From: Luteolibacter yonseiensis
GTDB lineage: Bacteria; Verrucomicrobiota; Verrucomicrobiia; Verrucomicrobiales; Akkermansiaceae
Direction of reading: 5' to 3'
DNA: 64,000 bases
Assembly (NCBI RefSeq): GCF_016595465.1
Contig: NZ_JAENIK010000004.1
Location: 868,001 to 932,000 of the forward strand
Positions 31,089 to 45,648 of the stretch are shown here, piece by piece; positions within the stretch are counted from its first letter, which is position 1; every line of letters begins with the position of its first letter. Position numbers and translations under genes: made by a program. A model generated the notes under the pieces. The model did no database searches. It had not been told where the DNA came from and saw only the letters and a list, made by a program, of their open reading frames with translations.

Positions 31089-34000
31089 GTGGCGAGATTG
31101 CTCGCCGTCGTGGCTCACTGCGCCCTCGTCCTGCCTGTCTCGGCGGAGCTGACGAACCGTTGGTCTTTCGGCAATGACGCGGGATCGGCCCCCGCCGGCA
31201 CCACCGTGAGCGACCGCGTGGGTTCTTCCGCCGCGACCGTGGTGGGCATGAACGCGAGTTTTACCGGAACGTCGCTCACCTTGCCCGGTTCGACGACCGG
31301 CAATCAGACACCTGCCGCCATTTCGGCTTACGTGGATCTGCCCAACGGACTGATTTCCTCGAAGACCAATCTCACCGTGGAAATCTGGGCCACGCCGATG
31401 TCGGTGAAAAACTGGCAGAGGCTTTTCGACTTCGGGCGCATGGCCAGCAACAACGGCCAGTTGAGCGCGAACGCCCGTGGAGACGGTGCGTCGAGCGGTG
31501 AAATCCTGCCCACGGCCACCGCGGCCCCGGCGAACGCCACCTCGAGCGACGACCTCGCCATGGCATTTCATCGTGACAACACCGCGAACACGCAGCGTGT
31601 CATGGCCAAGCTGGACGGGGCCGCGGAACTCGGCAGCAACACAGGTGCGGCTCTGGCAGCCGGGACCCAGTATCACTTCGTGTGCACCTTCACCGACGGC
31701 GCGGGGGGCGCCGGTGCGTCGGGGGGGCAGGTGGCATGGTATTTGAATGGGACGCTCATCTCCACGCTGGACGTCAATTTCCATCTTTCCGAGATCCAGG
31801 ACCGCAACAACTGGCTGGGCCGGTCGATGTACACGGCGGACAGCAACGCGAACATTTCCTACAACGAGGTGCGGCTCTACAACCACGCCCTCACCCCGGC
31901 GGAGATCTCCGCCAATCTCACGGCCGGTCCCGACAATCTCGGCGAGCCCGAGGTCGTCCCCGCACCGGTCCCTGACCACCTCTGGACTTTCACCACCCAG
32001 GCGGATTCGGAAGCTTCCTCCGGCACGGCATTCACCGACAGTCTGGGCGGGAAAATCGCGACGTTGCGCGGCAATGGCGGCTCTCTCACCGGTGGTGCCG
32101 TCGTCCTTCCCGGCAGCACGACCGGCAATCAGACCGCGGCGACCATTTCCGCCTATCTGGATCTGCCGAACGGCATCGTCACCGCCACGCCGAGCGTGAG
32201 CTTCGAGGCATGGGCCGCGCCGTTGTCATCGAAAAACTGGGCTCGTCTTTTCGACTTCGGACGCTGTGTCTCATCCCACGGAGCGGGCGCGGCTCCAGGT
32301 GAAATCCTGGATACCGCCGTCGCTCCGGGAAACACCTCCGCCTACGACAACCTCAGCCTCACCTTCAACAACGCGGGAAACATGAATTCCCAACAATTGG
32401 AGGGCCAGTATGACGGCAATCCCGCGCAATACACCTTCACCACCGCCGCCACCACGGCGGGCACGAAGTATCATTACTTCTTCGTCGTCGAGGACACCTC
32501 CACCGGCTGCCAGGTGCGGTGGTATCGGAATGGCGCGCTGCAGAATACCGCGAACTTCGCCTTCCATCTGTCTGGCATGGAAGACGTGAACAACTGGATC
32601 GGCCGCTCGATGTACACGGGGGATTCGAATTCACATCTTTCGCTCGACGAACTCCGCATCTACCGCCGTGTCGTGACCCCGGCGGAAATCCTCGCCAGCT
32701 ATGCCGCCGGGCCGGATCCGACCATCGGTCCGCCGGAGCCACCGGTTCCCGCACCACTGCCGTCGCGGCGCTGGAGCTTTGACTCCCCCGCTGGAAACGC
32801 CGTTTCCGGCACTGAATTCCTCGATACCGCTACCGGAGAAATCGCCACGGTCCGGGGAAACGGAGCCACCACCAACGGCACCGAGCTCATCCTGCCATCC
32901 ACCGCCACCACCGGGAACCAGTCCGCCACCAACATCTCCGCCTATCTGGATCTGCCGGATGGAATCATCTCCTCACGCCCGAGCATGACCGTCGAGGCGT
33001 GGCTCACTCCGCTGTCATCGAAAAACTGGCAGCGTATCTTTGACTTCGGAAACACCACCTTCACCAGCGGGCCTGGTGCTTCCACCGGAGAAATCATCGA
33101 CGGCCCGAACGCACCGGGAAATTTTGTCTCGAACGACAATCTTTTCCTTTCGCTCAACAACGGCGGAACGCTCGGTTCGAACCGGGTCGAGGCGAAGCTG
33201 GCGAACGGGGCCGCCACCGCATTGAACACGGACCTTTCCTCCACCACCACCGTCGGCACCCAGTACCAGTTCACCATGACCGTCGCCGATGGCGCGGGTG
33301 TAAGTGGTGCGACGGGTTGCCTGGTGAAATGGTATCGCAACGGCGTGCTGGGCGGCTCCATCGATCTGCCCTACCGCCTGCCGGATCTCCACGACGTGAA
33401 CAACTGGATCGGCCGCTCGATGTGGGCCGCCGATTCGAACGCTCATTTCAGGCTCAACGAACTCCGCCTCTACGATCGCGCCATCTCCGCCGCGGAGGTG
33501 AATTCATCCTTTGCCGCGGGTCCGGATGCCGTGTTTCCCCCACCTGTCGCGGCGGGTGACGAGGCGACCATCCACCCGGATCAGAAGGTGCTCGTGGACG
33601 TGTTGGAAAACGACACCGGAGGACCGCTGCCCGGAACTTTGGAAATTCTCATTCCTCCCGCCACCGGGACCGCCACGGTTTCCAATGGAAAAATCCTCTA
33701 TGCCCACCATGGCGCCGGAACGGCACCCGTCACATTCACCTATCGCGTGGGAAATATCAGCGGGAACACCGCGACAGGCACCGTCACCATCCGCTTTTCA
33801 AACAGCCTCCGTCTCACCAATGAAAAACTCGCCATGCCCGCGGCTCCGCCGACGAACGCCTGGCAGCTTGTGGAGGGATTGCCCGGTCTCACCTTCAACC
33901 AACCTCTCTGCCTCACCTCTCCACCGGGTGACGCCAGGAGGTTGTTCATCTGCGAGCGGATGGCGAAGATCAAGCTCGTCCCGGACGTGACGGCGACCTC

Positions 34001-36440
34001 GCCGACCCAGAGCACCTTCCTGGATCTGCAGACGGCCATCGCCGGACGCACCCCCACCGAGACCATCGAGGGTGGAGGGAATGCCGAGCATGGTTTGCTG
34101 GGTCTCGCCTTCCATCCGCAGTATGCGTCCAACGGTTATTTCTACGTCGCCTACACCGTCCGCATCAGCACGATCTACTACCAACGCATCTCGCGCTTCC
34201 GTGTCGGTTCTGATCCGGCTGTGGCTGATCCATCCTCCGAACTGATCCTGCTCCAGCAGCTCGACGAGGGTTCGAACCACGACGGCGGAGACCTCCACTT
34301 CGGCCCCGCGGACGGCTATCTTTACTACGCCGCGGGAGACGAGGAGAACCCGAACGATTTCCGTCTGAACAGCCAGAAGGTGAACAAGGACTTCTTCGGC
34401 GGTGTGTTCCGCATCGATGTGGACAAGAAGCCCGGCAACCTCGAACCCAATCCACACGCTGCGATTCCCACCGACGGCGGGATCGCGCGGTTTTCCGTTC
34501 CCGCGGACAATCCCTACGTCCACACCAGCCTCGGCGGCACATGGGATGGCACTTACAACGGAGTGGAAATTTCTCCACTCGCGAACATCCGCACCGAGTT
34601 CTGGGCCACCGGATTGCGTCACGTCTGGCGCATGTCATTCGACTCCGTGACCGGCGACCTCTGGGCCGGAGACGTCGGCCAGGACACCTATGAGGAGGTG
34701 AACAAAGTGGTCAAAGGCGGCAACTACGGTTGGGTTTATCGCGAAGGAAAACACAACACCGCTTTCACCAATCCCGTGCCGCCGGCCAAGCCCGCGGGAT
34801 TCACCAGCATCGATCCCGTTTACGAATACGTCCACGCCGCCATCTCCGGGGATGCGAATTTCAAGGGGAACTCCGTTGTGGGAGGATACGTCTATCGGGG
34901 AACGCGTTATCCATCGCTGGTGGGCACTTATGTTTTCAGCGACTCTGTTTCGGGTCATGTCTGGCAGATGGACACGGCGACGGGGGCCGTAGGCCGCCTG
35001 ACGGGCTTGCCCGGTGCCTATGGGGTTTTTTCCGCCCAGGGGATCGATCCCTCGAACAAGGATCTGTTTTTCTGCGCGTATCTCACCGGGAAAATCATGC
35101 GCCTCACCACGGGCAGCACGGCGAACGACGGATTCCCGAAAACCCTGACCGCCACCGGATTGTTCTCGGATCTCACCGACCTGTCACCCGCGCCCGGCCT
35201 GCTTCCCTACCAGCCGAACCTCACGTTCTGGAGCGACTTCGCGGTCAAGCGTCGCTGGTTCACCATTCCCGATGCCGGGAGCAGGATGACCTGGAGCAAG
35301 GACGGAAACTGGACCTGCCCCACGGGCATGGTCTGGGTAAAGCACTTCGACCTCGAACTCAGCCGGGGAAATCCGGCGACCAGGAAACGCATCGAGACCC
35401 GCGTCCTCGTGAAAACCGATACCGGCAGCTACGGAGTCAGTTACCGTTGGAACGAAGCACAGACCGAAGCGACCCTGGTGGAGGATGCGGGAGCGGAGTT
35501 CGATGTGGCCATTGACGACCACGGCACGCCCCACACCCAACGCTGGCAGATCCCCAGCCGGTCGAGCTGCCTCACCTGCCACACGCCGCAGGCCGGGCAC
35601 GCGCTTTCCTTCAACACCCGCCAGCTCAACATGGATTTCAACATCAACGGCTACGGTGGAAACCAGTTGGAGACCCTGACAAACAACGGTTTTCTCACAA
35701 ATGCCCCGGACCCCGTGGCAACGCTCGCCCGCCACGTCCGGCCGGAGGAAACGCAGTATCCGCTGGAGCAACGGGCCCGCTCCTACTTCGCCGTGAATTG
35801 TTCCTACTGCCATCAGGCGGGTGGCAGTGTCGGTGGATTCTGGGATGGCCGCGCCCATCTGACGCTTGAGGAAACCGGGCTCATCCACGGTGCCGCGGTG
35901 AACAACGGCGGGAGTTCGCTGAACCAGTACATCGTGCCCGGCGACACCACCCACAGCATCGTGCTCAACCGCATGGCCGGAACCAACGGCTTCGGACGCA
36001 TGCCCCCGCTGGGGAGCTCGGAAACGGACCCCGCCAACATCCAGCTCATCACCGAGTGGATCAACAACGAGCTGCCGAACCGTCCGCTTTACGACCAATG
36101 GCGCGATGGATTCTTCAGCGTGTTCGACTCGAAAGGGGACAAGAACGCCGACCCGGACGGAGACGGCGTCACCAACTATCAGGAATACCTGTTGGGCAGC
36201 TCACCTCTCTCCGGCGGCGGATCATGGCAGGCGGCCATTTCCGATGGTTCATTGAACTTCCTCAGGAAATCCCATCGCTATTATTCCATCCAGACCAGTA
36301 ACGAGCTGGGCCAATGGCAGCCATGGTCCATCCCGGAATTGGAAAACAGCTACAAAGCCACCGACGAGCCGATTCAGATCCCGTTGCCTGAGAGCCCCGA
36401 TGGCAGGCAGTTCTTCCGCTTCAAGGTGAGCGAGCCGTGA
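31089..36440 (+). CDS. Giant LamG x3 / sugar dehydrogenase / diheme cytochrome c protein
   Basis: A 1783-aa secreted protein from a GTG start, with a short signal peptide (LLAVVAHCALVLPVSA). It has three near-identical LamG-like jelly rolls (about 20-275, 290-540, 555-800; each with SAYxDLP and KNWxRxFDFG). A cadherin-like segment follows (about 815-900; VLVDVLENDT). A GSDH-type six-bladed propeller spans about 915-1340 (AEHGLLGLAFHP, NHDGGDLHFGPADGYLY). A TIGR03806-like C-terminal part has two c-type heme sites, CLTCH at 1494-1498 and CSYCH at 1571-1575. It ends with the DxDxDG tail and FFRFKVSEP. It probably oxidises sugars and passes electrons to its own hemes. Its last 20 bp overlap the convergent ATP-grasp gene. 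Confidence 0.85.
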   Translation: MARLLAVVAHCALVLPVSAELTNRWSFGNDAGSAPAGTTVSDRVGSSAATVVGMNASFTGTSLTLPGSTTGNQTPAAISAYVDLPNGLISSKTNLTVEIWATPMSVKNWQRLFDFGRMASNNGQLSANARGDGASSGEILPTATAAPANATSSDDLAMAFHRDNTANTQRVMAKLDGAAELGSNTGAALAAGTQYHFVCTFTDGAGGAGASGGQVAWYLNGTLISTLDVNFHLSEIQDRNNWLGRSMYTADSNANISYNEVRLYNHALTPAEISANLTAGPDNLGEPEVVPAPVPDHLWTFTTQADSEASSGTAFTDSLGGKIATLRGNGGSLTGGAVVLPGSTTGNQTAATISAYLDLPNGIVTATPSVSFEAWAAPLSSKNWARLFDFGRCVSSHGAGAAPGEILDTAVAPGNTSAYDNLSLTFNNAGNMNSQQLEGQYDGNPAQYTFTTAATTAGTKYHYFFVVEDTSTGCQVRWYRNGALQNTANFAFHLSGMEDVNNWIGRSMYTGDSNSHLSLDELRIYRRVVTPAEILASYAAGPDPTIGPPEPPVPAPLPSRRWSFDSPAGNAVSGTEFLDTATGEIATVRGNGATTNGTELILPSTATTGNQSATNISAYLDLPDGIISSRPSMTVEAWLTPLSSKNWQRIFDFGNTTFTSGPGASTGEIIDGPNAPGNFVSNDNLFLSLNNGGTLGSNRVEAKLANGAATALNTDLSSTTTVGTQYQFTMTVADGAGVSGATGCLVKWYRNGVLGGSIDLPYRLPDLHDVNNWIGRSMWAADSNAHFRLNELRLYDRAISAAEVNSSFAAGPDAVFPPPVAAGDEATIHPDQKVLVDVLENDTGGPLPGTLEILIPPATGTATVSNGKILYAHHGAGTAPVTFTYRVGNISGNTATGTVTIRFSNSLRLTNEKLAMPAAPPTNAWQLVEGLPGLTFNQPLCLTSPPGDARRLFICERMAKIKLVPDVTATSPTQSTFLDLQTAIAGRTPTETIEGGGNAEHGLLGLAFHPQYASNGYFYVAYTVRISTIYYQRISRFRVGSDPAVADPSSELILLQQLDEGSNHDGGDLHFGPADGYLYYAAGDEENPNDFRLNSQKVNKDFFGGVFRIDVDKKPGNLEPNPHAAIPTDGGIARFSVPADNPYVHTSLGGTWDGTYNGVEISPLANIRTEFWATGLRHVWRMSFDSVTGDLWAGDVGQDTYEEVNKVVKGGNYGWVYREGKHNTAFTNPVPPAKPAGFTSIDPVYEYVHAAISGDANFKGNSVVGGYVYRGTRYPSLVGTYVFSDSVSGHVWQMDTATGAVGRLTGLPGAYGVFSAQGIDPSNKDLFFCAYLTGKIMRLTTGSTANDGFPKTLTATGLFSDLTDLSPAPGLLPYQPNLTFWSDFAVKRRWFTIPDAGSRMTWSKDGNWTCPTGMVWVKHFDLELSRGNPATRKRIETRVLVKTDTGSYGVSYRWNEAQTEATLVEDAGAEFDVAIDDHGTPHTQRWQIPSRSSCLTCHTPQAGHALSFNTRQLNMDFNINGYGGNQLETLTNNGFLTNAPDPVATLARHVRPEETQYPLEQRARSYFAVNCSYCHQAGGSVGGFWDGRAHLTLEETGLIHGAAVNNGGSSLNQYIVPGDTTHSIVLNRMAGTNGFGRMPPLGSSETDPANIQLITEWINNELPNRPLYDQWRDGFFSVFDSKGDKNADPDGDGVTNYQEYLLGSSPLSGGGSWQAAISDGSLNFLRKSHRYYSIQTSNELGQWQPWSIPELENSYKATDEPIQIPLPESPDGRQFFRFKVSEP

Positions 36441-37584
36441 GATGCTGCGGTGGTGCTTGGGCCCACGCTCGCAATTCCGCTTCGTAGGTGTCCATTCCGT
36501 TCCACAGCACTTTTGGCAGGAGATCTCCGAATGCGTTCACCTCGGCGACCACGAAACGGCGGAAGGAGGAATCCACCATGAGATCAACCGCAAGGTAATG
36601 GCATCTGGAAAAGCAGACTGCGGCAGCTTCCGCTGTGCGCATTGCGGCAAGCCATTTCGCCTCTCCCAGCTGGGTTCGTACCGCATCCGCATCACCGCGC
36701 TGGTTTCCAAGATGGAGGTTGGTGATCGGAGAGCGGCTGGTTCTCACCACAACGTGGGCGGCTTGTCCGGCAATGACAAGAATCCGCAGATCATAAGTCC
36801 GTCCACCGATGGAAGCCTTGGGAATCCATCTTTCCGCCATCGCACGCTCTTGGCAGATGGCATCCACCCGTTCGCGGATTTGTGACAGATCCTTGAGTTT
36901 TTCGAGACGCAGGGAATTGTGGACATGCTGATTTCCAGAAAAAACCGCCGAGGTGGTGGCTTGCCAGCGGTTCCGGCCGTCTGTTTCCAAAGCGATCACT
37001 CCGGAGGCGGATGAACTGTGACATGGCTTGAGGAAAACCCGGGACAGTCCGGCTTCGCTCATGCGGTTGTGAAGATCCTGGAAGTCTCTGCAAATTCCCA
37101 GATTCTTGGCGATCGGAACTCCGGCATCATGAAGAAGCTCCTGAGTGGCAGCCTTGTCGAATGCCACGGCAATGTCCAAAGGTTCGTTCATGATCGGGAC
37201 GCCTGAAACATCAGCCGCGGATTGGATGATTCCCAAGGCCGAGAACCAGCCGTGATACCATTGTCGCTGCAATCGCACGCGCCCGGGATCTTCCTCAAGG
37301 TTCCCTGCGTCTGCTGCGGAAATCCAAGGCCAGAGATTCTCCACCTGGGACGTTCCACTTCCCAAGCAGATCAACCGCCGTTCCACTTCAAAATCCTCAC
37401 CTGCGGACTCGATACGCAAGGCGCATGCTCCCTGCAGATGTTCATGAAGCGGGAAATCATCCCGCAGGACGTTGATCCATGGCAGTATCAGGGGCTCCGG
37501 ATGCCCAACCCTTACACAGGCGTCCCGGAAGAACGCCGCACGCCGGTTCCCGGGGTTGCAGATGAGGGCGATGCGTCCGCTCAT
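36421..37584 (-). CDS. STM4014-family ATP-grasp protein
   Basis: A 387-aa protein. ATP-grasp features are visible: FDKAATQELLHDAGVPIAKN, a Lys in VFLKPCHSSSASGV and a late acidic metal site (LAVDLMV, VAEVNAFGD). The N-terminal half (ICNPGNRRAAFF) fits the STM4014 family named after Salmonella. These enzymes join a carboxylate to an amine or thiol through an acyl-phosphate. The ATG directly abuts the TAG of the LRR gene (37585), so the two are coupled. The 3' end overlaps the convergent giant dehydrogenase gene by 20 bp. The substrate is unknown. Confidence 0.8.
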   Translation of the reverse strand: MSGRIALICNPGNRRAAFFRDACVRVGHPEPLILPWINVLRDDFPLHEHLQGACALRIESAGEDFEVERRLICLGSGTSQVENLWPWISAADAGNLEEDPGRVRLQRQWYHGWFSALGIIQSAADVSGVPIMNEPLDIAVAFDKAATQELLHDAGVPIAKNLGICRDFQDLHNRMSEAGLSRVFLKPCHSSSASGVIALETDGRNRWQATTSAVFSGNQHVHNSLRLEKLKDLSQIRERVDAICQERAMAERWIPKASIGGRTYDLRILVIAGQAAHVVVRTSRSPITNLHLGNQRGDADAVRTQLGEAKWLAAMRTAEAAAVCFSRCHYLAVDLMVDSSFRRFVVAEVNAFGDLLPKVLWNGMDTYEAELRAWAQAPPQHLTARSP

Positions 37585-38511
37585 CTATTCGCCCACCGCC
37601 ACGTAGCGGTAAATTTCTCCATTATATTCGTCCGGTTTTTCCTGTCCGTCCACGTCCACCTCGATGCCGAGAGACTGAAAACGGTTGGCCACGGATTCCG
37701 AGATGAAGTTCCTGTGGAGATTGAGTTTTTTGAGATTTCTCACCCGTGGGCTGTCCAAAAGCTTTGCCGCGCCTTCGTCAGTCATGACACCAAGTGAGAG
37801 ATCCAGGGATTCCAGTTTGTCCAATATCGGAGAGTCTGCCAGCGCTGTGGCGATTTCGTTCTGGATGTCGCTGTTTCCAAGCGCGAGATGTTTCAGTTTC
37901 GGAAAAATCTCCGGATTCAAAAGCGGCAGGACATCCGTCAGGGAACCGTCGAATCCGTATTCGTCCGTTCCAAGCCACAACTCGAGACGCTCCAATTCGG
38001 GAAATGCGGAATCCGCGATGCCATGCAGCACCGCCTTCGGCATGCCGCCGGTTTCGATGATCAACCGCTTGAGTCCCAGATGTCGGCAGGGCTGGAATGC
38101 GAGTCCGTCCTGCCCGCGGGACCGCAGTTCCTCCAATTCAGGGAAAATCCGCAGGACCCGCGAAATGTCGCCCTGTTGGATCCACGACATCTCGTTCTCT
38201 TCCTGGGTGATGTCACCGAGAAACATTCCCCGCAGCTTGGGAAGCTTGGCACGGCCTGATTCCAAGAGGTCGAGAAACGCCTCCTGCCCCGTTTCTCCGC
38301 CTGCCTCGTCGGCCATTCCAAAAATGATCGCCACCGTATCCGCGACTTCGGGCGATTCCAGGTAGCGTTGGAAATGTTCGAGCGGGCTTTCTTCCGCATC
38401 ATAGGAATAACCGAAGCGATAGATGGCCCCGGAAGGCTGGAATCGCGTGTCGCCCGAGGCTTCTTCGACCGGCAGGCCGAACCAATTTTCAAGATGCGAA
38501 TCGTTGAGCAT
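37585..38511 (-). CDS. STM4015-family leucine-rich-repeat protein
   Basis: 308 aa from the ATG at 38511; longer in-frame starts run into the divergent HAD gene. The N-terminal about 120 residues contain WFGLPVEEA and YRFGYSYDAEES. Then come several LRR units (ELERLELWLG, LKHLALGNSDI, LESLDLSLGVMTDEGAAKLL, LKKLNLHRNFI). It has no enzyme motif and is cytoplasmic. In STM4011-4015 loci it probably recognises a partner or substrate. It is the first gene of the two-gene minus operon with the ATP-grasp gene. Confidence 0.8.
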   Translation of the reverse strand: MLNDSHLENWFGLPVEEASGDTRFQPSGAIYRFGYSYDAEESPLEHFQRYLESPEVADTVAIIFGMADEAGGETGQEAFLDLLESGRAKLPKLRGMFLGDITQEENEMSWIQQGDISRVLRIFPELEELRSRGQDGLAFQPCRHLGLKRLIIETGGMPKAVLHGIADSAFPELERLELWLGTDEYGFDGSLTDVLPLLNPEIFPKLKHLALGNSDIQNEIATALADSPILDKLESLDLSLGVMTDEGAAKLLDSPRVRNLKKLNLHRNFISESVANRFQSLGIEVDVDGQEKPDEYNGEIYRYVAVGE

Positions 38512-38525
38512 GGAAGAGATGGTTT

Positions 38526-38554
38526 TTGATCGAAAGCTCTGATTCAGATGACAT
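38526..38554 (+). promoter_or_regulatory. Possible promoter of the HAD/radical SAM operon
   Basis: TTGATC (38526-38531), a 17-bp spacer and TGACAT (38549-38554), 12 bp before the HAD ATG. It lies in a divergent intergenic space of only 55 bp, so both arms of the cluster would be switched from one small region. Confidence 0.35.
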
Positions 38555-38566
38555 GATCCGTCGGCG

Positions 38567-39253
38567 ATGCAAAGTTTTTTCCCGGATATCAAAGCCGTCG
38601 CCTTCGATTTGGACGACACCTTGTTTGACCGGGAGGAGTCTGTTAGGTCGTTGCTGGGTTCATGGCTCGGCCCTGTTCCGTCCGGAACCATGGAGGAAAT
38701 TTTATGGCGGGATGCGGGCGGCCATTCTCCCCGCGAACTTTTTTTTGACTGGCTCGGAAAGACTTTTCCGGGACTGGGCGATGATCTGTGGAGGCGCTTC
38801 CGGGAGGAGATTTCCGCGCATGTCATGGTTGATCCGGCCGCTCGCGGGTTGTTGGAGCAAATTGCCTCCAGCGGTCTTTCCCTTGGCTTGTTGTCGAATG
38901 GCGGCACGGTCCATCAGTTGGCCAAGCTGCAAGCCACCGGACTGGCCGGGTATTTTCTGCCGGAGCGCGTTCTCATTTCCGAAGCGCTTGGTATGGACAA
39001 GCCGGATCCCGGGGCATTCGTCGCTTTGACCGGAGTGCTGGGCTTGCCCCCGGAGCACATTCTTTTCATTGGAGATGATCCTGTGTTCGATGTCGCAGGG
39101 GCGAAGTGCGCCGGATTGAAGACCTGCTGGCTGAGAAGGCGTAATGGGAGTGGAAACTGTGGAGATGCAGATCTCGCGATTGATTCATTGTTTGAATTGA
39201 TGAACCCCTTCCGGCGATTGGCGATGCTGGACAAGGCAATCCCCGACGTTTAG
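38567..39253 (+). CDS. HAD-superfamily hydrolase (subfamily IA)
   Basis: A 228-aa protein. Motif I is FDLDDTLF with nucleophile D14 and acid D16. Motif II is LLSNGG, the motif III Lys is in MDKPDPGAF and motif IV is FIGDDPVFDV. An alpha-helical cap (about 20-95) fits subfamily IA phosphatases. It is the first plus-strand gene of the STM401x cluster, 8 bp before the next gene. A HAD gene is not one of the five named STM401x families, so it may supply a cluster-specific dephosphorylation. The substrate is unknown. Confidence 0.85.
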   Translation: MQSFFPDIKAVAFDLDDTLFDREESVRSLLGSWLGPVPSGTMEEILWRDAGGHSPRELFFDWLGKTFPGLGDDLWRRFREEISAHVMVDPAARGLLEQIASSGLSLGLLSNGGTVHQLAKLQATGLAGYFLPERVLISEALGMDKPDPGAFVALTGVLGLPPEHILFIGDDPVFDVAGAKCAGLKTCWLRRRNGSGNCGDADLAIDSLFELMNPFRRLAMLDKAIPDV

Positions 39254-39261
39254 CTCATCAC

Positions 39262-40062
39262 ATGCCTCCGGACATGAATCAGCTTCTCGGCACACACGAT
39301 CTGGTCTGGGTCGTGCCGGATGCCTTGCGATTTGATGTCGCGGAGCGGGAAATGCGAAATGGCGGCACGCCGAATCTGGCCGCGCTTTTTCCCAGCGGCT
39401 GGGAAAAACGGCACTCGCCAGGGAGTTTCACCTTTCCGGCGCATCAGGCGTTTTTCGCGGGATTCCTGCCGACGCCTGCGGACCCGGCAGCTGATAGACA
39501 ACGGCTTTTTGCGGCACGTTTCGCGGGCAGCGAGACCGCCGGTGCAGGCACGGTGTTGTTTGACGAGCCGGACATCGTCCATGGTTTGGAGGCGAGGGGC
39601 TATCATACATTGTGCATCGGAGGAGTGGGTTTCTTCAACCGCCAGACGGAGCTCAGCAGGGTGTTACCCGGCTATTTCGCGGAGAGCCATTGGTCCGAGG
39701 AAACCGGCGTCACCCATCCGGACTCCGCTCGCATCCAGTTCGAACTCGCGGCGCGCCGGCTTGGCGAGATACGGGTGGACCAGAAGGTTTTCCTGTTCGT
39801 CAATCTCAGCGCGATCCACCAACCGAACCGGCATTATATTCCCGGTGCCAGGGAGGACAATCTGGCAACCCATGCGGCGGCGCTGCGGGAGGTGGACAGC
39901 CGGTTTCCGATCCTGCTGGAAGCGTTGAAATCCCGAGGCCCGGTTCATTTGCTGGTATTTTCCGACCACGGCACGCTTTACGGTGAGGATGGATTCACCG
40001 GACACCGCTTCGGCCATCCTGACATCTATACCGTGCCGTATGCAGCGGCTCTTCTTCCCTGA
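39262..40062 (+). CDS. STM4013/SEN3800-family alkaline-phosphatase-fold hydrolase
   Basis: A 266-aa protein. Metal-site motifs of the alkaline phosphatase superfamily are visible: VVPDALRFD (D20, D25), a likely nucleophile segment GSFTFPAHQAFFAG, FSDHGTLYGEDG and GHRFGHPD. It lacks a signal peptide, so it acts in the cytoplasm. It lies between the HAD and radical SAM genes with gaps of 8 and 5 bp. The expected chemistry is hydrolysis or transfer of a phospho- or sulfo-group. A second Met at residue 5 is an alternative start. Confidence 0.8.
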   Translation: MPPDMNQLLGTHDLVWVVPDALRFDVAEREMRNGGTPNLAALFPSGWEKRHSPGSFTFPAHQAFFAGFLPTPADPAADRQRLFAARFAGSETAGAGTVLFDEPDIVHGLEARGYHTLCIGGVGFFNRQTELSRVLPGYFAESHWSEETGVTHPDSARIQFELAARRLGEIRVDQKVFLFVNLSAIHQPNRHYIPGAREDNLATHAAALREVDSRFPILLEALKSRGPVHLLVFSDHGTLYGEDGFTGHRFGHPDIYTVPYAAALLP

Positions 40063-40067
40063 CAATC

Positions 40068-41393
40068 ATGCCGCACACACTTGCCGAGCGCCTCTCCGAT
40101 GATCCCTATCAGGGCTATGCCTACGCTTATCCGCACAAGACCGCCTATCGGCACTTTGACAAATCCATTCCGCTGCGGAACCTGTGGCAAGGGGAGGATC
40201 GGGACTCGCTCTTTCTGTATGTGCATCTCCCGTTTTGTGAAATGCGTTGCGGCTTCTGCAATCTCTTCACCACCACGAATCCCGCGGAAGGCCTTGTGCA
40301 ACGTTATCTCGCCGCACTGGAAACCCAGACGGCTTGTACTGTGGAAGCGCTCGGGCAGCATGGCTTTGTCCGGGGCGCGATCGGTGGAGGCACGCCCACG
40401 TTTCTAACACCAGATGAGCTGGGACGGCTTTTTGAAATGCTTGACCGCCATTGTTCGCTTTTGCCCGGGATGCCTCTTTCATGTGAGCTTTCCCCCGCCA
40501 CGGCGGATCCCGAAAAACTCGCGGTTCTGAAAGCTTGCGGTGTCACGCGCGCCAGCATCGGTGTGCAGAGTTTCATCGAGAGCGAGACCCGGACGCTCGG
40601 CAGGCCGCAAAAACCCGCCACCGTGCACCAGGCGTTGGGACGGCTCCGGGACGCGGCGTTTCCGGTATTGAACATTGATCTGATCTACGGAGCGGTGGGG
40701 CAGACGGTTGTTTCCTGGGAGGAATCGTTGCGGGCCGCTCTCGAATACTCGCCGGAGGAAATTTTCCTTTATCCGCTTTATGTGCGACCGTTGACAGGAC
40801 TGGACCGCATCGGACGTGATCCATCCGATCTGAGGCTGGATCTGTATCGGGCGGGCCGGGATTTCCTGCTCCAGCGTGGTTACCGGCAGATTTCCATGAG
40901 GCTTTTCCGTCGGATCGGATGCGCTGCGGAAGATGGGGGATCCGCGGCCTATTGTTGCCAGGAGGATGGGATGGTGGGGCTTGGCGCGGGCGCGAGGAGT
41001 TATACCAGACACGTGCATTATTGCACCGAATACGCGGTGGGGCGCGGCGGCATCATGGAAATCATCGGAGACTATGTGGACAGGAGCGCCGCCGAGCATT
41101 CCTCAGCGGTTTATGGTTGCACCCTCGACACGGCGGAGCAGAAACGCCGTTACGTCATCAAGTCCCTGCTTCGTGCCGATGGATTGTGCGCTTCCGCATA
41201 CGCGGATTATTTCGGCACGGAATGCCTTATGGATTTTCCGGAACTCGGTGAGCTCGAAAGTTCGCCGCTCGCCACTTGGTGTGACGGTGTGTTGATTCTG
41301 ACGGATGCGGGGTTCGAGCGGGCGGATACCATCGGCCCATGGCTCTATTCCACTGTCGTGGCGGATGAAATGCAGCACTATCAGTTCGCATGA
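40068..41393 (+). CDS. STM4012-family radical SAM enzyme (HemN-like)
   Basis: A 441-aa protein. The 4Fe-4S cluster motif is C57-x3-C61-x2-C64 in HLPFCEMRCGFCNLF. The SAM-binding GGGTPTFL and HemN-type segments (ASIGVQSFIESE, NIDLIYGAVGQT, YPLYVRPLTGL) follow. The C-terminal domain resembles that of coproporphyrinogen dehydrogenase relatives. It overlaps the next radical SAM gene by 4 bp. It is not a heme-pathway enzyme by context; STM4012 proteins occur only with the other STM401x members. The reaction is unknown. Confidence 0.88.
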   Translation: MPHTLAERLSDDPYQGYAYAYPHKTAYRHFDKSIPLRNLWQGEDRDSLFLYVHLPFCEMRCGFCNLFTTTNPAEGLVQRYLAALETQTACTVEALGQHGFVRGAIGGGTPTFLTPDELGRLFEMLDRHCSLLPGMPLSCELSPATADPEKLAVLKACGVTRASIGVQSFIESETRTLGRPQKPATVHQALGRLRDAAFPVLNIDLIYGAVGQTVVSWEESLRAALEYSPEEIFLYPLYVRPLTGLDRIGRDPSDLRLDLYRAGRDFLLQRGYRQISMRLFRRIGCAAEDGGSAAYCCQEDGMVGLGAGARSYTRHVHYCTEYAVGRGGIMEIIGDYVDRSAAEHSSAVYGCTLDTAEQKRRYVIKSLLRADGLCASAYADYFGTECLMDFPELGELESSPLATWCDGVLILTDAGFERADTIGPWLYSTVVADEMQHYQFA

Positions 41394-42250
41394 GCCACAG
41401 ATGGAACATCCTCTATCGCGGTCCGCTTTCGAGCTGCAATTACGCGTGTGACTATTGCCCGTTCGCCAAGACGCGGAACACCGGTGAGGAATTGCGGGAT
41501 GACGCGGCGAAGCTCACACGTTTTATCGACCAGGTGGAACGCCGCGAAGATCGTGAGATCGGCGTGCTCTTCACGCCATGGGGGGAGGCACTGGTCCATC
41601 GTGCCTATCAGCAGGCATTGCTCCGGTTGGGACGCATGAACCACGTCTATCGAGCCGCGATCCAGACCAATCTGGCGTGCTCTCTGGATTGGTTGGAAGA
41701 GGCTGACCGGGATACCGTGGCACTCTGGTGCACGTTTCACCCGACGGAGACCACCGTGGGAAAGTTCGCCGCAAAAATCCACCGGCTGCGGGAAACGGGT
41801 ATCCGTCACAGTGTCGGCGTGGTAGGATTGAAGGAACATCAGGCGGATATCGCCGCCCTTCGCTCCGCTCTGCCGGAGGATACTTATTTATGGGTAAACG
41901 CCTACAAGCGTGTGGCGGACTATTATGGTGCGGAGGACGTCGAATTCCTGCGCTCGATCGATCGCCTGTTTCCCATCAACAACCAACGTCATCCGAGCCG
42001 GGGGCTGCCCTGCCACTCCGGGCACGCGAGTTTCACCGTGGATGGTGATGGAATGGCGCGCCGCTGCCATTTCATTGCCAGTCCGCTGGGGAGCTTCTAC
42101 GATGCGGACTTCGACAAGTTCCTGGCTCCGTCGCCTGTCCCGTGTGTCAACGACACCTGCGGCTGTCATATCGGGTATGTGCATCTGCCGCATCTCGGAT
42201 TGGATGAGGTTTATGGCGATGGGATTTTGGAACGTATACCGATGGGTTGA
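41390..42250 (+). CDS. STM4011-family radical SAM enzyme
   Basis: A 286-aa protein. The cluster motif C16-x3-C20-x2-C23 lies near the N-terminus (SSCNYACDYCPF). Five further cysteines (C208, C226, C252, C257, C259) near the C-terminus, including NDTCGCHIG, suggest an auxiliary iron-sulfur cluster as in SPASM-like enzymes. Translation is coupled to STM4012 by a 4-bp overlap, so the two probably act in sequence. The substrate is unknown. A peptide or small-molecule scaffold is possible, but no precursor peptide gene was found nearby. Confidence 0.85.
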   Translation: MSHRWNILYRGPLSSCNYACDYCPFAKTRNTGEELRDDAAKLTRFIDQVERREDREIGVLFTPWGEALVHRAYQQALLRLGRMNHVYRAAIQTNLACSLDWLEEADRDTVALWCTFHPTETTVGKFAAKIHRLRETGIRHSVGVVGLKEHQADIAALRSALPEDTYLWVNAYKRVADYYGAEDVEFLRSIDRLFPINNQRHPSRGLPCHSGHASFTVDGDGMARRCHFIASPLGSFYDADFDKFLAPSPVPCVNDTCGCHIGYVHLPHLGLDEVYGDGILERIPMG

Positions 42251-42333
42251 TGGCGTTTGCCCTTTGAAAAAATTCGAAGCCTGTCAGTTGTTTCTCCTGT
42301 CATCACCATGACGCCGATGTGTCACCCCCGATC

Positions 42334-43152
42334 ATGACATCACTCACCCATGCAAGGAAGGCGCTTGAGGAAGCGGAGGCACTGTTGATCACCGCGGGAG
42401 CGGGGATGGGTGTGGATTCCGGACTGCCGGATTTCCGTGGCAACGAGGGGTTCTGGAAGGCATACCCGCCGCTGGCGGCCAGAGGGATTGCCTTCCACGA
42501 CATCGCCAATCCGGGATGGTTTGAGGAAGATCCGGCGCTGGCCTGGGGATTCTATGGACATCGCCTCAATCTCTACCGCCGGACGTTGCCCCACGAGGGA
42601 TTCGGGATGTTGTTGGAAGCCGCGCTCCGGATGAAGGCCGGCTATTTCGTGGTGACTTCGAATGTGGATGGCCATTTTCAGAAGGCCGGGTTTTCGCCGG
42701 ACAACATCCTTGAGATCCATGGTTCCATCCATCACCTGCAATGTCGGACCGCATGCAAGGCAGGCCTCTGGTCGGCGGATGGATTGGAAATCGAGGTGGA
42801 CCTGGAAAGTTGCGAAGCAACCTCCAAATTGCCATCGTGTCCGGCCTGCGGGGAGATGGCCCGCCCCAACATCATGATGTTCGGTGACTATTGGTGGCTC
42901 GGGAAGCGGGAAAAGGAACAGAGGGCCGCCTACGACCGCTGGCTGGAGTCGGTGCGGGGGAAGCGGCTGGTGGTGGTCGAGTGCGGTGCCGGCACCGCTA
43001 TCCCTAGCATCCGGATGCTGTCCTCCAGAGTTGCGGAAGCGCCGGAAGCAACGTTGATCCGGATCAATCCGCGTGACTGCGACGTCGGCCCCGGAGAAAT
43101 TTCTCTGCCGGTCGGCGCGCAGGAAGGGATCCGGCAGCTCCTCACGCCTTGA
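42334..43152 (+). CDS. Sir2-family NAD-dependent protein (sirtuin-like)
   Basis: 272 aa from the ATG at 42334; a GTG five codons upstream is possible. The Sir2 NAD-binding motif GAGMGVDSGLPDFRG and the catalytic-loop equivalent TSNVDGHFQKAGF with IHGSIHHLQC are present. A zinc-ribbon pair is present as CRTAC (spacing x3, not the usual x2) and CPAC. The C-terminal part differs from CobB, containing IMMFGDYWWLGKREKEQ. It follows STM4011 by 83 bp on the same strand. It could remove acyl groups or ADP-ribosylate within the pathway, or serve an unrelated role. Confidence 0.82.
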   Translation: MTSLTHARKALEEAEALLITAGAGMGVDSGLPDFRGNEGFWKAYPPLAARGIAFHDIANPGWFEEDPALAWGFYGHRLNLYRRTLPHEGFGMLLEAALRMKAGYFVVTSNVDGHFQKAGFSPDNILEIHGSIHHLQCRTACKAGLWSADGLEIEVDLESCEATSKLPSCPACGEMARPNIMMFGDYWWLGKREKEQRAAYDRWLESVRGKRLVVVECGAGTAIPSIRMLSSRVAEAPEATLIRINPRDCDVGPGEISLPVGAQEGIRQLLTP

Positions 43153-43167
43153 AAAATCCTGCGGTGG

Positions 43168-45648
43168 TCACAACTCCGCCAGCGTTCCCTCGGTGACGCC
43201 GAGTTTTTCAAGGGCGTGCACCTTGTCGATGAGGTCGAAGGCGTCCGATTTTCCTGAGAGGAGATCCTGGTAGGCGCGGATGGTTTTTGCTGCGTCGTCG
43301 GTTTCGTCCAACAACTCGATGCGGAAACGTGAGAGTCCGGCTGCGCGCAGGTGTTCGTAGTAGCGGGCGCCGGTCTGGGCCTTGCCGTTGAAGAGGGTGT
43401 TGCGGCAGCCGACGTCGGCCTGCAGGCGGTGGAGCTGGCCGACGCGGTCGCGCAGGTGCACGACGTGCGATTCACACGGGCGGCCGCAGTCCTTGTAGGT
43501 CGTCCCCTTGCTGAGGAAGGTGCAGAACACGCAGTGCTCCATATGGAACATCGGCATGTGCTGGTGCAGCGTGAGCTCGAACCACTCCGGCGGCGCGCCC
43601 GCCAGCAGGTCCAGCACCTGGCCGATGTTCAGGTCGTAGGAAATGGTGAGGTGGTCGAGGGACGCATTCTCCATCAGCAGTTTCGCTGTGATCGGGTTGG
43701 CGACATTGAGGGAGAAGTCGCCGATTTTTTTCAGGTCGTGGCGGTCCTTGTAGAAGTGGAGTGATGCGAGGTTGCGGAGCAGCAGGCCGTCAGGCGCGGC
43801 TTTTTCAATCAGTTTCAGGTAGCCCATCTCGCCGGGCTTGAGGATGCGGGGAGTGGCGAGATGAATCGCCGAGTCCGATGTTCTGACGAGCGCGACCGCT
43901 TCCTTGTAGCGGCGGGGGTCTTCGAAATCGCAGTAGAGGGTTTCCACTCCGCATTCGAGCGCCGAGGACACCTGGTCCATGGTGCGGCAGAGCACGGACA
44001 GGTGTGGAGCGGTGGAAGTGGCGGACCGGGTGACGGCGGGCAGAAGATCCCGATGGGTGGTGGTGATCTTCGGCGGTTCCGGCTTGATGGCTGCGGCGTC
44101 CTCAAGCTGTTTGACGAGCGCGCGGCGGAGCTGGTTAAGGGCGGAAACGGCGATGTGGCAGTTTCCCTGCAAACGGTTGTCGAGCGAGCCGAGTTCGAAG
44201 GATGAGTCGCCGAGCCGGCCCAATTGCTCGGCGAGCTTTTCCGCTCCCAGCGGATGTTTTTCCGCCTCCAGAAGGGCCATGGCCGAGGATTCCGAGAAGG
44301 TGCGGCCGGCATATGCCGCCGCCACGGTGATCGGTTCGCCGGGTTGGCCGGTGACGACGAAGTGCAGCGGCGTCTTTTTCTCAGCGGGTCGCGTGTTCTG
44401 CCAGAAGCGGCGGAGTTCGGAGTCGAGTTTCGGGTCGGACGTCTTGTAGAGCGTGTGGCCGGGCTTGATGCGGTCGAAGTTGATGCCGCTGTAGGTGAGG
44501 TGGAAAATGAGACGGTCCCCCTCGATGACCCAGATGCGGGCGCCTTGTTCGAGGTCGCGGTTTTCCCCCGCGTCGAAGACCACGCCATCGCCGGCGGTGA
44601 AGGGGACGCCTGTCAGATTTCCGAGACGGATCCAGCCGGGGCCGCAGTCGATGATGGTGCCCAGCAGCGGTCCTCGCTTTTTCCCAAATTTCCCGTGAGT
44701 GAGGTACGGGTGGTTCGTCCCTGCGAACCAACCGGTGCTGAGGCCGCGGGAAAAGGTCATTTCCAGCTCGTAGCGGTCGGAGGGAGTGATCGGCGATTCA
44801 CTGTCGGAAATCGTTGCGTCGAGCGCCTTTCGATAGACCCGGGTGACGGCGGAGACGTATTCGGGGGATTTCAACCGGCCTTCGATCTTGAATGACTTCA
44901 CTCCGGCCTTCACCAGTTGCGGGACGAGGTCCACCGCCGCGAGGTCCTGGGGGCTGAGCAGGTATCGCACCGCGCCGAGTTCGCGTTTCTCGCCATCGAC
45001 GACGATTTCGTAAGGCATGCGGCAGGCTTGCGCGCATTCGCCACGGTTCGCGCTGCGCTGGCCGAGCGACTCGCTTGTCAGACACTGGCCGGAGTAGGCC
45101 ACGCAGAGCGCGCCGTGCACGAAGACCTCCAGAGGGGTCTTGAGATCAAGGCTTTCGGTATTGTGTGCGTGGAACCGTTCGATTTCCTTGATGGAGAGTT
45201 CACGTGCGAGCACGGCGCGTTCCATCGGGAAAAGCGTCTCGGCGAACGCCAGTCCTTCGGGGGAGGTGATCGTCATCTGCGTGGAGGCGTGCAGTTCCAC
45301 ATTCGGGGCGACGGTGCGGGCGAGTTTCGCGAGGCCCAGATCCTGGATGATGAGCGCGTCCACTCCGGCGGCGGCGATTTTCCGGAGCTGCTCCTCCGCC
45401 GCTTTCAACTCGCTGGTGAAAATCAGGGTGTTCATCGTGACGAATCCCTTCACGCCGTGGCGGTGGAGGAAATCCATCAGCTCCACGAGATCCGCTTCGA
45501 TGAAGTTGTCCGCACGGAGGCGGGCGTTGAACTTCGGCAGGCCGAAAAAGATCGCGTCCGCCCCGGCCGCCACCGCCGCACGGGCGCAGTCCCAGTTGCC
45601 CGCAGGGGCAAGGAGTTCAGGAGTCGTGTCAGGTGGAAGCGAAGGCAT
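43168..45648 (-). CDS. U32-family peptidase-like protein (RlhA/YdcP type)
   Basis: 826 aa from the ATG at 45648; 18 upstream codons were rejected as non-family. The N-terminal U32 barrel shows ELLAPAGNWDCARAAVAAGADAIFFG. The signature ECAQACRMPYE comes with Cys residues that probably bind a 4Fe-4S cluster. A central beta domain follows (DUF3656-like), then a second barrel-like half with MEHCVFC and DCGRPCESH near the C-terminus. Large two-part U32 proteins include RlhA, which hydroxylates C2501 of 23S rRNA. That role is possible here but unproven. It is convergent with the Sir2 gene, 15 bp apart. Confidence 0.85.
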   Translation of the reverse strand: MPSLPPDTTPELLAPAGNWDCARAAVAAGADAIFFGLPKFNARLRADNFIEADLVELMDFLHRHGVKGFVTMNTLIFTSELKAAEEQLRKIAAAGVDALIIQDLGLAKLARTVAPNVELHASTQMTITSPEGLAFAETLFPMERAVLARELSIKEIERFHAHNTESLDLKTPLEVFVHGALCVAYSGQCLTSESLGQRSANRGECAQACRMPYEIVVDGEKRELGAVRYLLSPQDLAAVDLVPQLVKAGVKSFKIEGRLKSPEYVSAVTRVYRKALDATISDSESPITPSDRYELEMTFSRGLSTGWFAGTNHPYLTHGKFGKKRGPLLGTIIDCGPGWIRLGNLTGVPFTAGDGVVFDAGENRDLEQGARIWVIEGDRLIFHLTYSGINFDRIKPGHTLYKTSDPKLDSELRRFWQNTRPAEKKTPLHFVVTGQPGEPITVAAAYAGRTFSESSAMALLEAEKHPLGAEKLAEQLGRLGDSSFELGSLDNRLQGNCHIAVSALNQLRRALVKQLEDAAAIKPEPPKITTTHRDLLPAVTRSATSTAPHLSVLCRTMDQVSSALECGVETLYCDFEDPRRYKEAVALVRTSDSAIHLATPRILKPGEMGYLKLIEKAAPDGLLLRNLASLHFYKDRHDLKKIGDFSLNVANPITAKLLMENASLDHLTISYDLNIGQVLDLLAGAPPEWFELTLHQHMPMFHMEHCVFCTFLSKGTTYKDCGRPCESHVVHLRDRVGQLHRLQADVGCRNTLFNGKAQTGARYYEHLRAAGLSRFRIELLDETDDAAKTIRAYQDLLSGKSDAFDLIDKVHALEKLGVTEGTLAEL

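Follow-up and report, generated by a model that had tools for sequence, protein, structure and literature searches.

RimK extends S6 at its C-terminal glutamate. LysX and ArgX, as described in PMC10433800, join an amino group to the γ-carboxyl of the C-terminal glutamate (Glu54) of LysW, a carrier with an EDWGE tail that the ligases recognise through a GSWGR motif. In the pearlin pathways, according to PMC9303977, an amino acid is amidated onto the C-terminus of a gene-encoded carrier and later altered, in one case by a radical S-adenosylmethionine (SAM) enzyme. Here we describe a cluster of genes of the STM4011, STM4012, STM4013, STM4014 and STM4015 families in a 64,000-nucleotide stretch of DNA from Luteolibacter yonseiensis (contig NZ_JAENIK010000004.1, positions 868,001 to 932,000; the window). 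The five families are already known by name, and their NCBIfam model names assign no function to them. What appears to be new is a conserved C-terminal tail on the leucine-rich-repeat (LRR) protein STM4015, its pairing with the RimK/LysX-like ligase STM4014, and the assignment of a Twitch-like cluster site to the radical SAM enzyme STM4011. We give about an even chance to the reading that STM4011–STM4015 is a protein-tethered modification system, in which STM4014 would join an amine to the terminal glutamate of STM4015 and STM4012 and STM4011 would then carry out radical chemistry.

Co-occurrence of the five families and the tail of STM4015

For comparison, an STM4012 alignment served as the probe against one-per-species genomes. 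The best 80 of 568 confirmed loci, seven loci from plasmid records and the locus in the window make up the 88 loci examined, which, plasmid records included, represent about a dozen phyla as judged by eye from the record titles. The models applied to these loci were built from six of the plasmid-record loci and the window, which therefore had to match. Seven loci among the 88 measure less than 10 kb, so that neighbours can be missed there.

The five families form one system. All five window proteins score above the curated NCBIfam cut-offs for the families to which the first-pass annotation had assigned them. STM4013 and STM4012 are found in all 88 loci, STM4011 in 87, STM4015 in 82 and STM4014 in 76. 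In a sample of 150 genomes from a single actinobacterial order, each of STM4014, STM4015 and STM4011 exceeds its cut-off in 86, and the genome sets of STM4014 and STM4015 are identical. At least one of the three families is present in 87 of these genomes, and 85 of the 87 have all three. This co-occurrence, and the recurrence of the five families from locus to locus, bear out the earlier proposal of a single system, whose enzymes include a pair of radical SAM proteins, an ATP-grasp ligase and an alkaline-phosphatase-fold hydrolase. Neither of the two outcomes that the first-pass annotation had named as grounds against it was obtained. The system is sparse in the phylum of the window, where STM4015 is above cut-off in three of 288 genomes, the same three that carry STM4011; the three other genomes of the same genus in that sample have neither.

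In the window, STM4015 is a protein of 308 residues (37585..38511, minus strand; NF038076, 306 bits against a cut-off of 275). Its family-consistent start is the ATG at 38511, and a mechanically called frame of 440 residues with a GTG start extends into the adjacent HAD gene. The protein ends in RYVAVGE, with Glu308 as the final residue (codons 37588..37608, minus strand; matched by a DNA pattern at G000:C4:905585-905608, stop codon included). Glutamate is the last residue of 115 of the 121 STM4015-like frames in the 82 loci, a count that is unfiltered, the 101-row alignment of the family having kept only motif-bearing frames with at least 200 bits. The tail mostly reads R-[Y/F]-x-A-V-[S/G/A]-E, with the consensus R-[YF]-V-A-V-[SGA]-E-COOH. 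Over the 121 frames, position −2 is Ser, Gly or Ala in 108, −3 is Val in 100, −4 is Ala in 86, −6 is Tyr (87) or Phe (22) in 109 and −7 is Arg in 96. The acidic linker that precedes the tail is hypervariable in both length and sequence. In the other proteins of the cluster, the commonest final residue accounts for 26 of 76 STM4014, 18 of 88 STM4013, 49 of 89 STM4012 and 14 of 85 STM4011 sequences. Identity within 51 pairs of STM4015 paralogs from the same locus is 74% over the last seven residues, 18% over residues 8–19 from the end and 58% over the whole protein, the first figure being inflated by preselection of the rows for the motif.

A degenerate DNA pattern for the tail and its stop codon gave 26 matches, in 12 genomes, when run over 21 cluster-bearing genomes (about 161 million bases), and its backward-read control gave none in the same 21 genomes. 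Since 25 of the matches end STM4015-family frames and the remaining one lies inside a tandem array of STM4015 genes, in a frame of its own of 33 residues, the tail, by this pattern, marks the STM4015 family alone in those genomes. The motif is absent from 12 LRR relatives in three myxobacterial genomes, where the stretches read around them contain none of the remaining cluster genes. These controls are weak matches to the STM4015 model (17–101 bits), and two pairs among them have near-identical endings, so that they do not amount to 12 independent cases. The LRR protein had initially been taken for a recognition protein only; this restriction is not supported, because the protein carries a strongly conserved tail, a possible target for a RimK/LysX-like ligase. 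STM4015 looks like a substrate or carrier.

Such a tail might instead be the core of a product resembling ribosomally synthesized and post-translationally modified peptides (RiPPs). The radical SAM enzymes would then act on its residues, STM4014 would close a side-chain or terminal amide or ester inside the protein in the manner of the graspetide ATP-grasp enzymes, and the LRR part would be an oversized leader. The tail is C-terminal, STM4015 paralogs stand in tandem, up to five of them, the Foldseek matches of STM4014 include the ATP-grasp ligase PsnB together with a precursor peptide (7drm, E 1.6e-11) and STM4011 is similar in fold to the peptide modifiers SkfB, SuiB, EpeE and 5why. However, RiPP cores usually vary and their leaders are conserved, the last 12 residues of STM4015 contain no invariant Ser, Thr, Lys, Cys or Tyr, and the neighbour groups examined include no recurrent peptidase or dedicated exporter. 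We consider this account unlikely. A Glu–Tyr crosslink of the kind that occurs in pyrroloquinoline quinone is likewise unlikely as the general reaction, because position −6 is Phe in 22 of the 121 frames.

Several further features of the family deserve description. The STM4015 profile matches PDB entry 2ra8 (E 2e-78), a solved, uncharacterised LRR protein of Bacteroides fragilis with an extra N-terminal part of about 75 residues. STM4015 copies occur in tandem, up to five per locus; arrays of four or five paralogs, whose linkers diverge and whose tail is mostly shared, are found at L067:417-5966, L068:1079-6125, L048, L081 and L028. The tail of the first Herpetosiphon paralog (L032, L081) is lost or extended. 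Three short Calothrix frames (129–191 residues, L065:3177-4754) match only the C-terminal part of STM4015, and each ends in LYE in place of the typical tail. A further variant is that of Salmonella, which ends in MYTE.

STM4014, the radical SAM enzymes and a proposed route

The STM4014 ATP-grasp ligase of the window is encoded at 36421..37584 on the minus strand (NF038074, 376 bits against a cut-off of 175). The stop codon of the LRR gene (37587-37585) abuts its ATG at 37584, and its 3′ end (36421-36440) overlaps by 20 base pairs the end of a convergent open frame of 1783 residues (31089-36440, plus strand). All 76 loci that have both genes contain a single STM4014, and STM4015 lies immediately 5′ to it in the same orientation, no more than about 210 base pairs from the STM4014 domain; a frame-based rule caught 74 of these pairs, and in the other two (L008 and L063) the genes slightly overlap. 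The genomes of nine of the 12 loci without STM4014 were searched (all except L051, L056 and L082), and seven of the nine carry an STM4014 gene above cut-off elsewhere, in each case adjoining an STM4015 that ends in Glu. As STM4014 can stand away from the radical SAM genes yet beside STM4015, the pair is separable from the group formed by HAD, STM4013, STM4012 and STM4011.

A structure model of the window STM4014 (mean pLDDT 95.9) is nearest in fold to ArgX–LysW (3vpb, Z 24.2, 2.8 Å over 271 residues), followed by RimK (7qys, Z 24.0; 5zct, Z 23.8; 5zk6, with RpsF, Z 23.7) and LysX (3vpd, Z 23.7), where rows within 1 Z count as tied. The LysX–LysW-γ-AAA structure is also among the nearest folds. 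At the sequence level, the NCBIfam RimK, MptN and LysX models match STM4014 below their cut-offs, RimK being the best non-self model (rimK_fam, 33.2 bits against a cut-off of 143.4), and the STM4014 profile run against the PDB places LysX first and RimK lower. Residues K144, K186, D265, R267, R281, T288, N289, D334, E348 and N350 are conserved, and the ATP-grasp DxR, R, TN and ExN residues, in a feature list of our own, align with those of LysX (1uc8). The conserved lysine is followed by GSSASG-like sequences.

LRR proteins commonly bind partners, and the tail could be a docking signal only. In that case STM4015 would hold the enzymes, as a scaffold or a regulator, and STM4014 would make a small-molecule amide, leaving STM4015 untouched. 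Only the final residue of the tail is near-invariant, and the remaining pattern would suit a binding motif equally; in addition, glutathione synthetase and D-Ala ligases are among the fold matches of STM4014. Docking, however, would not need an exact C-terminal Glu, yet this residue is kept across about a dozen phyla, and the adjoining ligase is nearest to enzymes that act on protein C-terminal glutamates. Furthermore, in the loci read, a single STM4014 has beside it several STM4015 genes in tandem that share the tail. A role in docking alone therefore seems rather improbable to us.

The two radical SAM enzymes are encoded on the plus strand by genes that overlap by 4 base pairs. STM4012 (40068..41393; NF006067, 550 bits against a cut-off of 380) is HemN/HemW-like and has a CX3CX2C motif at C57/C61/C64. 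The PDB sequences nearest to it are HemN (1olt, E 2.5e-52) and the radical SAM methyltransferase NocN (9p2u, E 1e-33), and it falls below the cut-offs of the NCBIfam HemN, HemW and HutW models; the comparison here is with HemN and the class C radical SAM methyltransferases. STM4011 (41390..42250; NF038073, 373 bits against a cut-off of 200) carries its CX3CX2C cysteines at C16/C20/C23, which are conserved in 86 of 86 sequences. Five additional cysteines lie nearer its C-terminus, of which C208 and C226 are present in 86 of 86 sequences, C252 in 84 of 85, and C257 and C259 in 84 of 84. They align with C333, C351, C380, C385 and C387 of SkfB, where the numbers of the chain and those of the paper differ by 2 and C380 is deduced from the CX4CXC spacing. 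The ligands of the SkfB [2Fe-2S] cluster are C351, C385 and C387 according to PMC6231123. On the strength of this alignment, STM4011 is predicted to carry a Twitch-like auxiliary cluster site at its C-terminal end.

The STM4011 structure model (pLDDT 94.9) resembles BlsE (Z 16.2), SkfB (Z 15.4) and MoaA (Z 14.3), and STM4011 thus has relatives of both the peptide type and the small-molecule type. SuiB, EpeE and the sactipeptide thioether enzyme 5why are similar in fold as well. BlsE, the nearest of all, belongs to blasticidin biosynthesis, and pathways to cofactors and antibiotics typically use radical SAM enzymes, ATP-grasp ligases and phosphatases, so the cluster might be a small-molecule pathway already known under another name. 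We consider this very unlikely: NCBIfam labels all five families by locus name, and in the open-licence PMC literature the family names appear nowhere and the locus names only as two table entries, one for STM4013 and one for STM4015, with STM4011, STM4012 and STM4014 unnamed. The identifier PRK08208 occurs in one paper. The same open-licence literature has no discussion of the STM4011–STM4015 set, the family names or the DUF6745 accessory described below, and no paper that combines three of the terms LRR, radical SAM, ATP-grasp and C-terminal glutamate.

In the protein-tethered modification system that we propose, STM4015 would be an LRR scaffold that presents the tail R-[YF]-V-A-V-[SGA]-E-COOH. 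The RimK/LysX-like STM4014 would phosphorylate a carboxylate of the terminal Glu and join to it an amine, which may be an amino acid or an amino acid phosphate. The HemN-like STM4012 and the Twitch-type STM4011 would then act by radical chemistry, either on the group attached to the tail or on the tail itself, and STM4013 and, where present, HAD would strip a phosphate or a sulfate-like group. We infer that the tail is the substrate and is flexible, as well as the sequence of steps, the nature of the group that is added and the phosphate reactions. The product may remain on STM4015 as a protein-borne group, at which the tandem same-tail copies and the lack of any recurrent release peptidase among the genes seen both hint. 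More tentatively, and with a probability well short of even, the ligase may charge the near-universal Glu tail of the LRR protein so that the two radical SAM enzymes can make a prosthetic group or warhead that is retained there, with the tandem paralogs serving as differently aimed carriers; this would be a biosynthesis of a new, protein-tethered kind.

A number of observations weigh against this proposal. Six of the 121 frames lack the terminal Glu; two Herpetosiphon paralogs and one from Pyxidicoccus, which ends in Asp, look genuine, and the other three seem to be wrong or shifted frames. Nine of the 21 cluster-bearing genomes have no exact match to the tail pattern, and among the 12 control LRR proteins three have a final Glu, though they lack the motif. 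No full STM4014 above cut-off is present in the genomes of L017 and L018, and in the actinobacterial order one of the 150 genomes has STM4014 and STM4015 without STM4011 and one the reverse. For the ligase, ATP-grasp folds all resemble one another: scores no more than 2.4 below that of the best fold are reached by glutathione synthetase (1gsa, Z 22.7) and by D-Ala ligase (8evy, Z 21.8). The GSWGR motif is found in none of the 76 STM4014 proteins, which are thus not LysX or ArgX; STM4014 may work like these enzymes on a different tail. For STM4011, BlsE ranks ahead of SkfB in fold, and the sequence match to SkfB, taken over the whole chain, is weak (E 0.0065). Finally, a partial look at the neighbourhood, through ten representatives of its largest gene groups, revealed no recurrent release peptidase. 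The first-pass annotation had seen in the cluster a complete route, of which the two radical SAM enzymes, the ligase and the alkaline-phosphatase-fold hydrolase stand and completeness is unproven.

The tail of STM4015 narrows the question of the pathway to mass spectrometry of one peptide. If the proposal is true, LRR proteins would join the short list of carriers for metabolite or cofactor assembly, and a new natural product or protein-derived cofactor, made by two radical SAM enzymes, may come to light.

Gene layout, accessory genes and neighbours

The gene order, strands and coordinates of the divergent cluster, the junction of the LRR stop with the ATP-grasp ATG, the 4-base-pair overlap and the cysteine positions were exact as first annotated, and so was the gap of 55 base pairs between the LRR and HAD genes (38512-38566, with the LRR start at 38511). 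A consensus search of 38300-38700 found no sigma-70-like promoter for this gap, other promoter types remaining possible. No known RNA matches at the Rfam gathering thresholds in 36000-43600. A Salmonella regulon table in PMC3844500 lists a predicted sigma-54 site at STM4013.S in the opposite orientation.

STM4013 (39262..40062, plus strand; NF038075, 364.5 bits against a cut-off of 250) is the alkaline-phosphatase-fold hydrolase. Residues D20, T57, H186, D235, H236 and H248 are invariant in 33 sequences, and the profile matches sulfatases and phosphodiesterases in the PDB weakly. Directly 5′ of it lies a HAD-family hydrolase gene (38567..39253, plus strand; Pfam PF00702, E 1.5e-17). Both HAD and Sir2 were annotated at first as additions to the five-gene set and as parts of the system, and the two have fared differently. 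A similar HAD gene stands just 5′ of STM4013 in 22 of the 80 other loci, a recurrence that rules out a local addition. Once real starts are allowed for, the gene is on the same strand and just 5′ of STM4013 in all 23 loci that have it, with a gap of about 370 base pairs in L026; a stop-to-stop frame script found 18 of the 23 adjacent, and start estimates bring in the other five. HAD is thus a recurrent accessory. The HAD at the end of the Salmonella cluster that was read is a different, Cof-type protein.

The Sir2 family gene (42319..43152, plus strand; Pfam PF02146) is absent from the other 87 cluster loci, within the stretches fetched. Homologues at E 1e-40 occur in six further genomes of the window's order in the sample searched, and none of the six has STM4013 above cut-off. 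On these grounds Sir2 was rejected as a member of the system, and it is probably a bystander. The HAD and Sir2 models were each made from one sequence, and distant members may escape them.

A second recurrent accessory pair consists of DUF6745 (30 of 88 loci) and an unnamed family of about 100 residues (29 of 88), with both present in 29 loci and neither seen in the window. A search of the window's genome for DUF6745 gave no match, but its controls gave none either, so that the negative does not establish absence. Examples are found at L007:10207-11528, L008:3668-4993, L009:2317-3781 and L014:10243-11552. DUF6745 proteins have in common a C-terminal ending ...Y.P... followed by ET, EA or QT; in Deinococcus and Methylobacterium the domain comes after repeats that look leucine-rich.

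The remaining 6347 frames were clustered with BLAST by single linkage, with which weak neighbour families could be missed. The 30 largest groups cover 5 to 14 loci each, and many of them come from one lineage only or are antisense-looking frames. Compared with Pfam, the ten group representatives included an ABC transporter and permease (14 loci), a protein kinase, a response regulator, a RecQ-like helicase, an NlpA lipoprotein and a weak SLOG match, and four of the ten matched nothing. No PEARL ligase is among these ten, although no search with a PEARL model was made.

Among the matches listed, the cluster closest to that of the window is L015, from a 6.3-Mb metagenome-assembled genome titled Akkermansia muciniphila; genomes of that species are expected to be smaller, and the title is probably wrong. 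Eight Rhizobium plasmids and one Cupriavidus plasmid carry an STM4012-like radical SAM gene (30–34% identity); in the one of them that was read (L012:7986-10303) the gene lies beside a methyltransferase and pseudoazurin without other cluster genes. These plasmid genes probably belong to another system that carries the same annotation.

Comparison with known systems

The Salmonella locus has all five STM401x genes together in one record, as does the window. The window cluster differs from it in being divergent and in having its HAD gene before STM4013, whereas the Cof-type HAD of Salmonella comes after STM4011. STM4011 shares with SkfB the C-terminal cysteine pattern and the fold (Z 15.4); unlike SkfB, it is too short, at 286 residues, for an N-terminal RRE domain, and the sequences match weakly.

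RimK has a protein substrate, the role that we propose for STM4015, and its fold is similar to that of STM4014 (5zct, Z 23.8). In contrast to RimK, STM4014 lies below the rimK_fam cut-off and has a dedicated LRR partner in the adjoining gene.

Amidation at the C-terminus of an encoded carrier, followed by enzymatic change, is common to the pearlins (PMC9303977) and to the route proposed for STM4015. PEARLs, however, use aminoacyl-tRNA and STM4014 is an ATP-grasp enzyme; pearlins are released by proteolysis, and in the clusters considered here no recurrent peptidase was seen.

With LysW/ArgW and LysX/ArgX the system has in common a carrier with a C-terminal Glu that is served, or in the case of STM4015 would be served, by an ATP-grasp ligase (for LysW, the EDWGE tail and the linkage at Glu54; PMC10433800). 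Here, however, the carrier is a 308-residue LRR protein instead of one of the LysW type with zinc-binding cysteines, its tail reads R-Y-V-A-V-[SGA]-E and not EDWGE, and the STM4011–STM4015 cluster brings radical SAM enzymes to the carrier and its ligase.

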